NCBI GenBank assembly: GCA_029268265.1
Contig: JAJUGH010000005.1
Coordinates: forward strand, 1-32,653
Direction of reading: 5' to 3'
DNA from: Alcaligenaceae bacterium
GTDB lineage: Bacteria; Pseudomonadota; Gammaproteobacteria; Burkholderiales; Burkholderiaceae_B
DNA: 32,653 nucleotides
Part shown: positions 2,911-7,443 of the stretch, one piece after another
Layout of the letters: every line of letters begins with the position of its first letter
How positions within the stretch are numbered: the stretch's first letter is position 1
Translations under genes and position numbers: made by a program
Notes under the pieces: model-generated
Told to the model about the DNA's origin: nothing
What the model saw: the letters and a program-made list of their open reading frames with translations, nothing else
Databases searched by the model: none

Positions 2911-4017
2911 TCAGGCAGCGCTGCCGATCAGGGCATTTGCTGATTGCGACGCCACCTCGCGGCGCTTGCGCACCGCTGCAGCGAGACGGTCGAGAACGGC
3001 CACGGACTCGTCCCAGTCGATACAACCGTCGGTAATGCTCTGACCATAGGTGAGTGGCTGGCCCGCGACGAGATCCTGCCGCCCCGCCACCAGGTTGCTC
3101 TCGACCATGACGCCGCAGATGCGGTCATCGCCCTGTTCCATCTGGGCCGCCACATCGTCGATCACGAGCGGCTGCTTCCGGTAGTCCTTGGAACTGTTGG
3201 CGTGGCTGGCATCGATCATCAGACGGGGAAGCACGCCGGCCTTGGCGATCATCTGTGCAGCTTCTTCAACGCTCGCGGCGTCGTAATTCGGTTGCTTGCC
3301 GCCGCGCAGAATCACGTGGCAGTCCTTGTTGCCTACCGTGGAGACGATGGCGGAGTGGCCGCCCTTGGTCACGGAAAGGAAATGATGAGGCTGCGATGCG
3401 GCAAGCATGGCGTCGATCGCAATCTTGGTGTTGCCATCGGTTCCGTTCTTGAAGCCCACCGGGCAGGACAGGCCGGACGCCAGTTCGCGGTGAACCTGGC
3501 TCTCGGTGGTACGCGCCCCGATTGCTCCCCAGGAAACCAGGTCGGCAATATATTGCGGCGTAATCATGTCCAGAAACTCGCAACCTGCCGGCAGGCCCAG
3601 TTCGTTGACCTGAATCAGCAGTTCGCGCGCCGTGCGCAGCCCCTTGTTGATATTGAAGCTGCCATCGAGACCCGGGTCATTGATGAGCCCCTTCCAGCCC
3701 ACGGTGGTACGGGGCTTCTCGAAGTACACCCGCATGATGATCTCGAGGTCCTGGGCATGGCGTTTGCGCTGCTCCACGAGCTTGCGGGCATATTCGAGAG
3801 CCGCGGCCGGATTGTGGATGGAGCACGGCCCGATCACGACCACGAGGCGGTCGTCTTCGCCGTCGAGCACATCGTGAACCGCCCGGCGCGATTGGTAGAC
3901 CACCGATGAGATATCCGGAGTGCATGGAAATTCCCGCATGATATGCGAGGGGGGGGACAGTTCCTTGATTTCCCGGATTCGAAGGTCATCAGTATTGTGC
4001 GACACGGTGTGCTCCAT
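2911..4017 (-). CDS. aroG: 3-deoxy-7-phosphoheptulonate synthase (DAHP synthase, class I AroF/G/H type)
   Basis: 368 aa; VVVIGPCSIHNPAAALEYA, MRVYFEKPRTTVGWKGLINDP, ARTTESQVHRELASGLSCPVGFKNGTDG, DASHANSSKDYRKQ motifs. The paralog label (F/G/H) is not resolved. Confidence 0.95.
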   Translation of the reverse strand: MEHTVSHNTDDLRIREIKELSPPSHIMREFPCTPDISSVVYQSRRAVHDVLDGEDDRLVVVIGPCSIHNPAAALEYARKLVEQRKRHAQDLEIIMRVYFEKPRTTVGWKGLINDPGLDGSFNINKGLRTARELLIQVNELGLPAGCEFLDMITPQYIADLVSWGAIGARTTESQVHRELASGLSCPVGFKNGTDGNTKIAIDAMLAASQPHHFLSVTKGGHSAIVSTVGNKDCHVILRGGKQPNYDAASVEEAAQMIAKAGVLPRLMIDASHANSSKDYRKQPLVIDDVAAQMEQGDDRICGVMVESNLVAGRQDLVAGQPLTYGQSITDGCIDWDESVAVLDRLAAAVRKRREVASQSANALIGSAA

Positions 4018-4047: not shown

Positions 4048-4084
4048 AAAAAAAGCCGCCTGGCTGTGCGCTGGCGGCTTTTTT
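4048..4084 (-). terminator. Intrinsic terminator/attenuator between the aromatic leader peptide and aroG
   Basis: Minus strand reads AAAAAAGCCGCC-AGCGCACAGCCA-GGCGGCTTTTTTT: a GCCGCC/GGCGGC stem extended by A/T pairs, followed by a U tract, 31 nt upstream of the aroG ATG. Confidence 0.85.
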
Positions 4085-4100
4085 GGGAATTTGGCTTGTT

Positions 4101-4187
4101 TCAGTGCGTACGACAGTTCCCTTCCTCCACCAGCGGCTTAGGAAAAGCATAAAAGTAAAAAAAGAAAAACTGGAAAGCGGTACGCAT
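4101..4187 (-). CDS. Aromatic-rich leader peptide MRTAFQFFFFYFYAFPKPLVEEGNCRTH (7 Phe and 2 Tyr within residues 5-15), putative attenuator leader of aroG
   Basis: Decoded codon by codon from the reverse complement (ATG 4187, TGA 4101). AGGA lies 8 nt upstream of the ATG. An intrinsic terminator sits between this ORF and aroG. Too short for the ORF track. Confidence 0.85.
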   Translation of the reverse strand: MRTAFQFFFFYFYAFPKPLVEEGNCRTH

Positions 4188-4194
4188 GAGATAA

Positions 4195-4223
4195 ATCCTA
4201 GCACGGCGAACGCAGCGTGCCAA
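4195..4223 (-). promoter_or_regulatory. Candidate sigma70 promoter for the aroG leader: TTGGCA-N17-TAGGAT
   Basis: Minus-strand TTGGCA (4223-4218), 17-nt spacer, TAGGAT (4200-4195), directly upstream of the leader peptide ATG. Confidence 0.45.
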
Positions 4224-4391: not shown

Positions 4392-5252
4392 ATGCCAGCA
4401 ATCGCATCCCGCCTCACCATGGCACTTGCCGTGGGAGTGGCTCTGTGTGCACCTCTGGGAGCCGCACAAGCGGCAAGCCTGGAAGAGATCAAGCAAAAAG
4501 GGCAGATCCGCATCGCCGTCGCCAACGAAATCCCTTATGGCTACGTCGACCTGAGCGGTGATGCCAAGGGCGCGGGCCCGGATGTCGCACGCCAGATCAT
4601 GAAACAACTGGGCATCGACAAGATCGAATGGGTAAGCACCAGCTTCAGCTCGCTGATCCCGGGGCTACGCGCAGACCACTTCGACATGGTGGCGGCAGAA
4701 ATGGCCGTGCTTCCCGAGCGCTGCAATCAGGTGCTGTTCTCCGAGCCGAACAGCTCATATGGCGAAGGCCTGCTCGTGGCGAAAGGCAACCCGCAGGATC
4801 TGCACAGCTACGAAGATTTCGCAAAGTCCGAGCATAAGGTCGCCATCATGGCGGGAGCGGATCAGCTCGAGATGCTCCAGGCGCTGGGCGTCCCGTCCAA
4901 CCGCATGGTGACGATTTCCAACAATGCGGACGCCATCTCCACGGTTTCCACGGGACGCGCCGCCGCTTATGCCGCGACTAGCCTCACGGTTGGCGAACTG
5001 GCCAAGCAAAGCGACCGCGTCGAGGCCGCAGCCAACTTCACCGATCCGGTTGTAAACGGCTCACCGGTCCGTAGCTGGGGCGCGTTTACGTTCAGCCTTG
5101 AATCGGAAGACCTCCGTGATGCCGTGAGCGCCGAACTGGCCAAATTCAAGGAAACCGATCAGTGGAAGGAAATTCTCAGCAACTACGGGTTCAGTGATAC
5201 CGATATTGCCGAATCGACTTCCCGCAGCACCGAGCAACTGTGCGCCGGATGA
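4392..5252 (+). CDS. ehuB: ABC transporter substrate-binding protein, ectoine/hydroxyectoine EhuB family
   Basis: 286 aa with signal peptide; ANEIPYGYVDLSGDAKGAGPDVARQIMKQLGIDKIEWV..LIPGLRADHFDMVAAEMAVLPERCNQVLFSEP and C-terminal TEQLCAG resemble EhuB. AGGAG Shine-Dalgarno at 4381. Confidence 0.8.
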   Translation: MPAIASRLTMALAVGVALCAPLGAAQAASLEEIKQKGQIRIAVANEIPYGYVDLSGDAKGAGPDVARQIMKQLGIDKIEWVSTSFSSLIPGLRADHFDMVAAEMAVLPERCNQVLFSEPNSSYGEGLLVAKGNPQDLHSYEDFAKSEHKVAIMAGADQLEMLQALGVPSNRMVTISNNADAISTVSTGRAAAYAATSLTVGELAKQSDRVEAAANFTDPVVNGSPVRSWGAFTFSLESEDLRDAVSAELAKFKETDQWKEILSNYGFSDTDIAESTSRSTEQLCAG

Positions 5253-5259
5253 TTGATTC

Positions 5260-5931
5260 ATGAACTGGACGGCGTACTTACCGCCCCTGCTTGAAGGCGC
5301 ATGGGTCACGGCCCAGCTCACTTTCTATTCGACGGTACTGGGCGCGGTGTTCGCGTTCGCCTTCGGTCTGGGCCGGATCTCCAGCAACTGGGCGCTGAAG
5401 GGCTTCTCGATAGCCATGATCGAGGTATTCCGCGGCACCTCGCTGCTGGTACAGCTCTTCTGGCTGTATTTCGCCTTGCCGCTGGTGGGCCAGATGTTCG
5501 GCATGGACTGGCGTCTTCCTCCGGTGGTGGCAGGCACCCTGGCGCTGAGCCTCAATATCGGTGCCTACGGTGCCGAAGTGGTTCGCGGCGCCGTGCAGGC
5601 AGTGCCGCCGAACCAGTATGAAGCCGCCAAGGCGCTGGACTTCACGCCTCGGCAAACCCTGTGGCGCATTGCCCTGCCCCAGTCGATTCCTGAAATGCTG
5701 CCCAGCTTCGGGAACCTGGCGATCCAGAACCTGAAGGACACGGCGCTCGTCTCGCTCATCAGCCTGGGAGACATGACGTTCCGGGCCGAACAAATACGCA
5801 ACTTCACGCAGGACAGCACGACCGTCTATACCTTGTTGCTTTTCATGTATTTCGGCATGGCGCTCGTCCTGGCCGCACTCATGAAGCTGCTGGAGCGCTC
5901 TGTGGGCCGCTGGCGGCCGGGGAGGGCCTGA
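5260..5931 (+). CDS. ehuC: Amino-acid-type ABC transporter permease, EhuC family
   Basis: 223 aa; HisM/GlnP-type permease with EVFRGTSLLVQLFWLYFALP and the EAA motif YEAAKALDFTPRQTLWRIALPQSIPEMLPSFGN; within the ehu operon. Confidence 0.8.
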   Translation: MNWTAYLPPLLEGAWVTAQLTFYSTVLGAVFAFAFGLGRISSNWALKGFSIAMIEVFRGTSLLVQLFWLYFALPLVGQMFGMDWRLPPVVAGTLALSLNIGAYGAEVVRGAVQAVPPNQYEAAKALDFTPRQTLWRIALPQSIPEMLPSFGNLAIQNLKDTALVSLISLGDMTFRAEQIRNFTQDSTTVYTLLLFMYFGMALVLAALMKLLERSVGRWRPGRA

Positions 5932-5932
5932 C

Positions 5933-6625
5933 ATGCTTTTTGGTATCGAATGGGACACCTCCAGTCACTGGGCATTCGCGGTTTCCATCTTCCCCATCCT
6001 GATGAAGGGTCTGCTGGTCACCCTGCAAGCGACCGTGGTGGGGTTTTTCATCGCCATGATGCTCGGGCTGGTACTCGCTGCCCTCAAGGCCGCCCGCCTC
6101 AAGCTGATCTCGTGGCCGGCCCGCTTCATCACCGAGTTCATTCGCGACACACCGTTGCTCGTCCAGCTGTTCTTCCTCTATTACGTGTTGCCCGAATACG
6201 GCATCGTTCTGCCGGCTTTCATGACGGGTGCGCTGGCGCTGGGTCTGCAATACAGCGCCTACATGTCCGAGGTCTACCGTGCCGGTATTGAGTCGGTGCC
6301 GATGGGCCAGTCCGAGGCCGCCCGGGCGCTGGACCTTTCACCGCGGCGCACGTTCAGCGTGATCATTCTTCCGCAGGCTATTCCGCGCATTATTCCGGCG
6401 CTGGGAAATTACCTGGTTTCGATCATGAAAGACGTGCCGCTGCTGTCGGTCGTTGCCGTGCTGGAAATGCTCAACGTTGCCCGCATTATTGGCGACCGCA
6501 CGTTCAACTACCTAATACCGCTATCCATGGTGGGCCTGATTTACCTGATTCTGACCCTGGTCGCCGCGTCGGCCATCCGGTATCTGGACAGCCGCCTGCC
6601 GAAACATGGGATCCCGCTGAAATGA
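5933..6625 (+). CDS. ehuD: Amino-acid-type ABC transporter permease, EhuD family
   Basis: 230 aa; EFIRDTPLLVQLFFLYYVLPEYGI, SEAARALDLSPRRTFSVIILPQAIPRIIPALGNYL; operon position. Confidence 0.8.
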   Translation: MLFGIEWDTSSHWAFAVSIFPILMKGLLVTLQATVVGFFIAMMLGLVLAALKAARLKLISWPARFITEFIRDTPLLVQLFFLYYVLPEYGIVLPAFMTGALALGLQYSAYMSEVYRAGIESVPMGQSEAARALDLSPRRTFSVIILPQAIPRIIPALGNYLVSIMKDVPLLSVVAVLEMLNVARIIGDRTFNYLIPLSMVGLIYLILTLVAASAIRYLDSRLPKHGIPLK

Positions 6626-7443
6626 ACATCAATCCGGCTGAAGCACAGCCACTGCCCACGTCCGCGAGCCCAGACGCCATCATCCACTTCGACAAGGTGG
6701 TGAAGCGCTTTGGTCCGGTGACCGTATTGGATTCGCTGGATTTCGAGGTGCGCAAGGGCGAGAAGGTGACGATCATCGGGCCCTCGGGGTCCGGCAAATC
6801 GACCGTGCTGCGTATTCTGATGACCCTGGAAACCATAGACGAAGGCGTCATACACGTGGCCGGGCGACCGTTGTGGCATGAACAACGGAACGGCTCACTG
6901 GTGCCCGCAGGGGAAAACCACTTGCGCGAGATGCGCAAGGAAATGGGCATGGTGTTCCAGCAATTCAACTTGTTCCCGCACATGACCGTGCGCCGCAACG
7001 TGACCGAGGCACCGGTGCATGTGCTGGGACTCTCGCGCAAGGAAGCCAATGAGCGCGCTGAGGAATACCTGAACCTCGTGGGTCTCAGCGATCAGGCCGA
7101 TAAATTCCCCAGTCAGTTGTCGGGCGGCCAGCAACAGCGTGTAGCCATCGCCCGCGCACTGGCCATGCGGCCCAACATCATGCTCTTCGATGAACCCACA
7201 TCGGCGCTCGACCCCGAGCTCGTCGGCGAAGTGCTGAACGTCATTCAGCGCCTCACCGAGGAGCACGATCTGACCATTCTGCTGGTCACACACGAAATGC
7301 AGTTCGCCAAGCGCGTCTCAGACCGCGTGTGCTTCTTCGACAAGGGACGTATCGTGGAACAGGGGCCGCCAGAGCAGGTTTGCGGCGATCCCCAAGAGGC
7401 CCGCACCCGCGACTTTCTGAAAAACTTTCTGGACAAGGAATAA
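6622..7443 (+). CDS. ehuA: ABC transporter ATP-binding protein, EhuA family
   Basis: 273 aa; Walker A GPSGSGKST, signature LSGGQQQRVAIARAL, Walker B IMLFDEPTSALD; ATG overlaps the ehuD stop. Confidence 0.82.
   Translation: MNINPAEAQPLPTSASPDAIIHFDKVVKRFGPVTVLDSLDFEVRKGEKVTIIGPSGSGKSTVLRILMTLETIDEGVIHVAGRPLWHEQRNGSLVPAGENHLREMRKEMGMVFQQFNLFPHMTVRRNVTEAPVHVLGLSRKEANERAEEYLNLVGLSDQADKFPSQLSGGQQQRVAIARALAMRPNIMLFDEPTSALDPELVGEVLNVIQRLTEEHDLTILLVTHEMQFAKRVSDRVCFFDKGRIVEQGPPEQVCGDPQEARTRDFLKNFLDKE

Follow-up and report, generated by a model that had tools for sequence, protein, structure and literature searches.

The window analyzed here, a stretch of 32,653 nucleotides (nt) at positions 1 to 32,653 of contig JAJUGH010000005.1 of assembly GCA_029268265.1 (Alcaligenaceae bacterium), carries on its minus strand aroG, a gene for 3-deoxy-D-arabino-heptulosonate 7-phosphate (DAHP) synthase, the first step of the shikimate pathway. 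The gene is preceded by a short open reading frame (ORF) rich in Phe and Tyr codons, with an intrinsic terminator between the two (Table 1), and this leader very likely acts in cis on aroG as a ribosome-mediated transcription attenuator. The source genome, a draft assembly of 249 contigs totaling 2.4 Mb, is approximately 70% complete; judged by AroG, its closest named relatives belong to the Alcaligenaceae. The identity of AroG is backed by NCBIfam NF006723/TIGR00034, and the enzyme is nearest by sequence to the Phe-regulated type of Escherichia coli. An earlier note on this DNA had recognized the AroG-type DAHP synthase correctly but placed its start at ATG 4017. The protein read from GTG 4005 aligns residue for residue and without gaps at the N terminus with the Phe-regulated AroG of E. 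coli (MSHNTDDLR against MNYQNDDLR), and GGAG lies 6 nt upstream of this codon. ATG 4017 is therefore disfavored as probably four codons too early.

Table 1. Features of the aroG leader region in the window (5′ to 3′ on the minus strand)
Feature	Position	Strand	Remarks
Leader promoter, −35 element TTGGCA	4218..4223	−	TTGGCA also present at this position in most close relatives
−10 element TAGGAT	4195..4200	−	7 nt before the leader ATG; predicted transcript start at the ATG or about 1 nt upstream of it
Leader peptide ORF	4101..4187	−	28 codons, ATG 4187, TGA ending at 4101; peptide MRTAFQFFFFYFYAFPKPLVEEGNCRTH, read directly
Segment 1, P1 5′ strand CGUAC (codons 2-3)	4180..4184	−	Pairs with 4107-4111; fold, covariation of the homologous helix in relatives
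Aromatic codon run F5-F15 (F Q F F F F Y F Y A F)	4143..4175	−	Predicted stall region
Segment 2, antiterminator 5′ strand CGCUGGUGG (codons P18-V20)	4127..4135	−	Pairs with 4069-4077
Inner antiterminator strand GGGAA	4117..4121	−	Pairs with UUCCC at 4085-4089; 68% paired, weaker
P1 3′ strand GUACG	4107..4111	−	Fold, covariation
Inner antiterminator strand UUCCC	4085..4089	−	Pairs with GGGAA
Segment 3, antiterminator 3′ strand CCGCCAGCG	4069..4077	−	CCGCC at 4073-4077 also in the terminator 5′ arm
Intrinsic terminator AAAAAAGCCGCC / GGCGGCUUUUUU	4049..4084	−	Fold
aroG-type DAHP synthase	2911..4005	−	GTG 4005 start preferred over ATG 4017

Direct reading of the minus strand retrieves the same 28-codon ORF that the earlier note had described at 4187-4101, with nine aromatic residues within residues 5 to 15 of its peptide, MRTAFQFFFFYFYAFPKPLVEEGNCRTH. 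Searches for AroG covered every level from the genus through the family and order to the phylum, along with a named genome set, and DNA upstream of the gene was collected from 247 loci. Among 244 of these aroG upstream regions, an ORF with at least six aromatic residues in 12 codons is present in 140, compared with 10 on the antisense strand and 3.2 expected from dinucleotide shuffles; with at least five aromatic residues, the corresponding numbers are 157, 27, and 15.4. The leader occurs in all eight genomes of the genus and in 38 of 39 further orthologues sampled in the family. Almost every family genus in the sample has it, and named relatives with the leader include Pollutimonas, Achromobacter, Advenella, Bordetella, and Castellaniella. 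Of 25 family genomes, 22 give a strong full-length match to a covariance model built from the family leaders, almost always a single match located at aroG; one genome holds two copies.

The aromatic half of the leader is conserved as codons. Over the last eight codons of the run in 83 family leaders, 85.5% of in-frame codons specify Phe, Tyr, or Trp, compared with 36% and 43% in the other two frames. The first codon position is nearly always T, the second alternates between T and A (Phe or Tyr), and the third between T and C, so that changes are almost confined to TTT/TTC, TAT/TAC, and exchanges between Phe and Tyr; insertions and deletions in this half of the leader alignment come in multiples of three. 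The earlier note had set conservation of the Phe/Tyr run in orthologous leaders beforehand as a test able to refute its proposal, and the run is kept, with synonymous drift. T-rich DNA does yield Phe codons in all frames, as the 36 to 43% of aromatic codons out of frame attest, and the ORF and hairpin could on these grounds be taken as incidental, the former a T-rich stretch and the latter the terminator of an upstream transcript. This is hardly credible: a chance ORF in T-rich DNA is ruled out by the frame, antisense, and shuffle controls, and the conservation, the frame-specific composition, and the promoter, antiterminator, and P1 covariation described below all contradict it. Moreover, no upstream transcript would end at the hairpin, because the upstream neighbor in the window is divergent (4392-7443, plus strand; an EhuB-type [ectoine/hydroxyectoine] substrate-binding protein, two permease-like ORFs, and an ATPase-like ORF).

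The sole sigma-70-like site between 3900 and 4450 is TTGGCA-17-TAGGAT with an extended −10 TG, which matches at 9 of 12 positions. Among the family leaders, a TANNNT hexamer ends 6 to 9 nt (once 4 nt) before the ATG in 81 of 83, versus 2 to 7 of 83 in upstream control blocks. In alphaproteobacterial and Xanthomonadales leaders, the −10 element is less canonical (TANNNT in 4 of 25 and 0 of 11, respectively). Pairing with the anti-Shine-Dalgarno sequence before the 83 family leaders is at the control level (mean of −3.28 versus −3.10); aroG itself has a clear Shine-Dalgarno sequence (mean of −6.13, with 83 of 83 at or below −5). The 6- to 9-nt spacing from −10 element to ATG, together with the absence of a Shine-Dalgarno sequence, suggests that the leader ORF is probably leaderless. 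Consistent with initiation at the A of the AUG, the base at position −1 is a C in 54% of the family leaders, 96% of the alphaproteobacterial leaders, and 82% of those from Xanthomonadales. TAGGAT was also considered as a Shine-Dalgarno sequence and rejected, given that relatives carry TAACAT, TACCAT, TATCAT, or TACGAT there, that the spacing from the −35 element stays at approximately 17 nt, and that anti-Shine-Dalgarno pairing is no better than in the control. There is precedent in Sinorhizobium meliloti, where the trpL leader ORF was shown to be leaderless (PMC10117765).

The intrinsic terminator that the earlier note had placed at 4084-4048 folds at 4084-4049, in the order AAAAAAGCCGCC-AGCGCACAGCCA-GGCGGCUUUUUU, with 12 bp and a 2-bp inner stem. 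Its folding free energy is −20.2 kcal/mol (z = −4.7), and none of 200 shuffles was as stable. Across relatives, its 11 pairs are 96.7% paired, with compensations from G-C to A-U, and the terminator, whose conservation had likewise been proposed as a check, is kept in 83 of 83 family leaders. A simple pattern scan of the minus strand does not list this terminator because its loop limit of 8 nt excludes the hairpin.

The codons for PLVEEG in the leader ORF pair with the 5′ arm of the terminator and thus provide an antiterminator. Since CCGCC is common to CCGCCAGCG and the terminator arm, pairing of CGCUGGUGG with CCGCCAGCG and formation of the terminator are mutually exclusive, and in the window the antiterminator (−21.2) is about as stable as the terminator (−20.2). 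This exclusive pairing is conserved. In 39 diverse sequences, the outer antiterminator helix is 91% paired, versus 24 to 60% when the whole structure is slid, and it displays GC-to-AU and UA changes, with both sides altered in three sequences at pair 55:140. Covariation of the antiterminator in these 39 sequences is not significant by itself against the shuffle control because the helix hardly varies. Pairing of segment 2 with the terminator arm beats that of shuffled segment 2 in 80 of 83 family, 27 of 27 other betaproteobacterial, 16 of 18 alphaproteobacterial, and 9 of 10 Xanthomonadales leaders.

A further helix, P1, pairs the first codons of the ORF with the stretch that follows segment 2 at the end of the ORF. 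As a 1:2 hairpin it would compete with the antiterminator, and its covariation in Betaproteobacteria supports this role. When halves were swapped between leaders, the own halves gave −12.75 and the swapped halves −9.99 (z = −7.5; 0 of 5,000; uncorrected for phylogeny). Three other segment pairs used as controls were null, and the antiterminator gave a weaker signal (z = −2.8). In a fixed register, 72% of the P1 cells are paired, versus 32 to 50% when slid, and 20 cells are compensatory, versus a mean of 10.2 after block swaps (0 of 1,000; again uncorrected for phylogeny). The pairing is plain in Achromobacter, as CGCGUCCC/GGGACGCG in L039 and CGCUUCCC/GGGAAGCG in L046. RNAalifold alone recovers the terminator and a small hairpin, UUUCC:GGAGGAA. 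Gaps at the 5′ end keep it from detecting P1, which emerged only from the swap and fixed-register tests.

The C-terminal half of the leader behaves differently from the aromatic half. In two relatives (L020 and L053) the reading frame is shifted through segment 2, and a stop codon interrupts this segment in L038 as well as in further leaders from Advenella, yet the GGCGG-type RNA is kept in all of them. This indicates, by sequence comparison, that the C-terminal half is conserved mainly as RNA, and the same frameshifted and shortened relatives disfavor the C-terminal peptide as a functional element. They also bear on the idea that the leader encodes an arrest peptide, in which the nascent chain and a bound aromatic amino acid, rather than a shortage of charged tRNA, stall the ribosome, as in TnaC with tryptophan. 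The peptide is highly conserved in the family, the C-terminal PKPLVEEGKRCTQ included, as an arrest peptide would be; however, this C-terminal part overlaps segment 2 and shifts frame or stops early without loss of the RNA, the aromatic run differs among leaders in length and in its use of Phe or Tyr as codon counting predicts, and direct stimulation by the end product would presumably have the wrong sign for a biosynthetic gene. An arrest peptide is thus very unlikely.

Conservation of the ORF, the promoter, the terminator, the antiterminator complementarity, and P1 covariation argue instead for attenuation, in which the Phe/Tyr-rich ORF and the RNA switch probably allow read-through into aroG only when charged Phe- or Tyr-tRNA runs short. 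The earlier note's proposal of a ribosome-mediated attenuation architecture is in this way supported by the conserved run, the terminator, the antiterminator, and the covarying 1:2 helix. From these features we infer where transcription starts, that the leader is translated, that ribosomes stall on it, and that Phe and Tyr are the amino acids responded to. The sigma-70 promoter would start the RNA at or within about 1 to 2 nt of the leader AUG, and the ORF would be translated as a leaderless mRNA. When Phe- or Tyr-tRNA is short, the ribosome would stall in the Phe/Tyr run and cover segment 1; P1 would be blocked, CGCUGGUGG would pair with CCGCCAGCG, the terminator would be pre-empted, and the polymerase would enter aroG. 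With both tRNAs charged, the ribosome would either lie over segment 2 while segment 3 is synthesized or depart and let P1 form. Either way the antiterminator would be blocked, the terminator would form, and an RNA of approximately 140 nt would be released.

Folding of the nascent RNA up to segment 3 under a ribosome-sized mask fits stalling-induced antitermination. When the mask covers the early aromatic codons, the antiterminator forms with a mean probability of 0.89 (1.00 in the window leader); the mean is 0.54 (0.01) without a ribosome and 0.09 (0.00) when the ribosome lies just past the run, over segment 2.

Several observations weigh against attenuation. A ribosome masked on the stop codon leaves the antiterminator unblocked (mean of 0.71; 0.92 in the window), since the stop lies approximately 24 nt after CGCUGGUGG. 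The model therefore needs either transcription-translation coupling, with the ribosome on segment 2, or release of the ribosome with P1 re-forming, and this step of the mechanism is the least certain. The counts of the P1 swap tests ignore phylogeny and are to be read as strong support rather than as probabilities. Covariation of P1, clear in Betaproteobacteria, is not evident in alphaproteobacterial or Xanthomonadales leaders. Finally, some family members have no leader (G021, G033, and L045). At these loci (L111, L198, and L045, from G021, G033, and a metagenome-assembled genome), aroG starts approximately 30 to 190 nt after a C terminus that is TldD-like by its motif, as if aroG had joined this transcript or had lost its own promoter and leader.

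Outside the family, the leader recurs in further Burkholderiales, Massilia and Oxalicibacterium among them; in the Xanthomonadales genera Dyella, Rhodanobacter, and Pseudoxanthomonas; and in the Rhizobiales genera Devosia, Kaistia, Rhizobium, and Methylosinus. Many of the more distant aroG genes among the 244 upstream regions have no leader. At the Rhizobiales loci (L058, L060, L077-L079, and L085-L110), an AroG-type DAHP synthase occurs together with the attenuator, and joint horizontal transfer of aroG and leader is possible. In genome G012, which has two DAHP synthases, the leader stands only at the closer orthologue (L112) and not at the second paralogue (L207). At approximately 210-1236 of locus L258 (G011:C1:1193300-1196500), the leader and terminator occur complete a second time (model E value of 6.5e-20), followed by the first aroG codons (GTGTCGCACAATCCTGATG) fused in frame to the C-terminal part of an ORF that is MnmA-like by its motif. 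The junction, AATCCTGATG, resembles microhomology between aroG and mnmA, and the regulator seems from this arrangement to have been transferred to a different gene or to part of one. The codon content also varies with lineage. The 83 family leaders total 470 Phe, 187 Tyr, and 9 Trp codons; Trp codons are also present in 11 of 11 Xanthomonadales, 19 of 25 alphaproteobacterial, and 18 of 29 other betaproteobacterial leaders. Because Trp codons join Phe and Tyr in many leaders outside the family, the set of sensed amino acids may differ between lineages.

Ribosome-mediated attenuation at aromatic codons is classical in pheL-pheA. The E. coli pheL-pheA leader (Rfam RF01859, Phe_leader) has a similar Phe-rich leader, alternative hairpins, and intrinsic terminator, but its target is pheA rather than a DAHP synthase. 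In the window, RF01859 scores 19.8 bits (E value of 0.82), below its gathering score of 55. No family of Rfam 15 reaches its gathering threshold in the window or in ten relatives, the best subthreshold hits being other amino acid leaders. The element is thus outside Rfam Phe_leader, yet by all features testable in sequence it is a predicted ribosome-mediated attenuator.

In E. coli, DAHP synthases are controlled by TyrR/TrpR and by feedback inhibition. In a large reconstruction of proteobacterial regulons, those of TrpR and TyrR are described for lineages of Gammaproteobacteria (PMC5343134). The earlier note had suggested that attenuation of this enzyme would be a different control logic from that of E. 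coli; Phe/Tyr attenuation is supported by the present analysis, and the novelty of the logic does not hold, as attenuation at a DAHP synthase gene has been experimentally reported for aroR-aroF of Corynebacterium glutamicum (Neshat et al. 2014, via PMC11802643; PMC4046766). In these accounts, the aroR leader peptide likewise contains aromatic codons (Phe-Tyr-Phe), and stalling under Phe limitation raises expression; compared by description, it differs in being actinobacterial, in having three aromatic codons, and in that Tyr availability is described there as without effect. An attenuator at a DAHP synthase gene has also been predicted in Acholeplasma, as uORFC-13-1 upstream of aroF (PMC8632094). 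It shares with the present leader a predicted upstream ORF with one or more Phe codons, a promoter, and a terminator before the gene, and differs in its occurrence in Acholeplasma and environmental sequences only, in having a Phe codon count of at least one, and in its ribosome-binding site. A search of the open-access literature, including attenuation screens and proteobacterial regulons, turned up no description of the element in proteobacteria, with an earlier prediction in subscription papers being possible. The element is widespread and unannotated in the collections searched, and it most likely belongs to a known class of attenuators.

The closest parallel for the start of the RNA is rnTrpL/trpL of S. 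meliloti (PMC10117765), a leaderless attenuator with its ORF at the first nucleotides of the RNA, as is probable for the aroG leader. It differs in carrying Trp codons and lying upstream of trpE, and functions of its RNA and peptide in trans are described there. By analogy with rnTrpL/peTrpL, the AUG-initial terminated RNA of approximately 140 nt or its peptide could act in trans, with or without attenuation in cis. This is quite unlikely, as the cis helices and codons account for the conservation seen; no trans target was found, and none was searched for. A wider proposal, that the element is a leaderless Phe/Tyr sensor, with Trp added in many lineages, that integrates the three end products of the pathway at the first step, has spread with aroG in Beta-, Gamma-, and Alphaproteobacteria, and also acts in trans through its terminated AUG-initial RNA or peptide, is unlikely.

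Flux toward all of the aromatic amino acids is determined by how DAHP synthase is controlled. As a cis-acting attenuator of aroG, the leader would be a candidate regulator of this step in a large share of the Betaproteobacteria, among them relatives in Bordetella, Achromobacter, and Advenella, and in some alpha- and gammaproteobacterial lineages, and it contains an unannotated small ORF that gene callers overlook. Owing to their conserved promoter-to-AUG spacing, these leaders may furthermore serve as a wide natural collection in which to study how leaderless translation is coupled to transcription.
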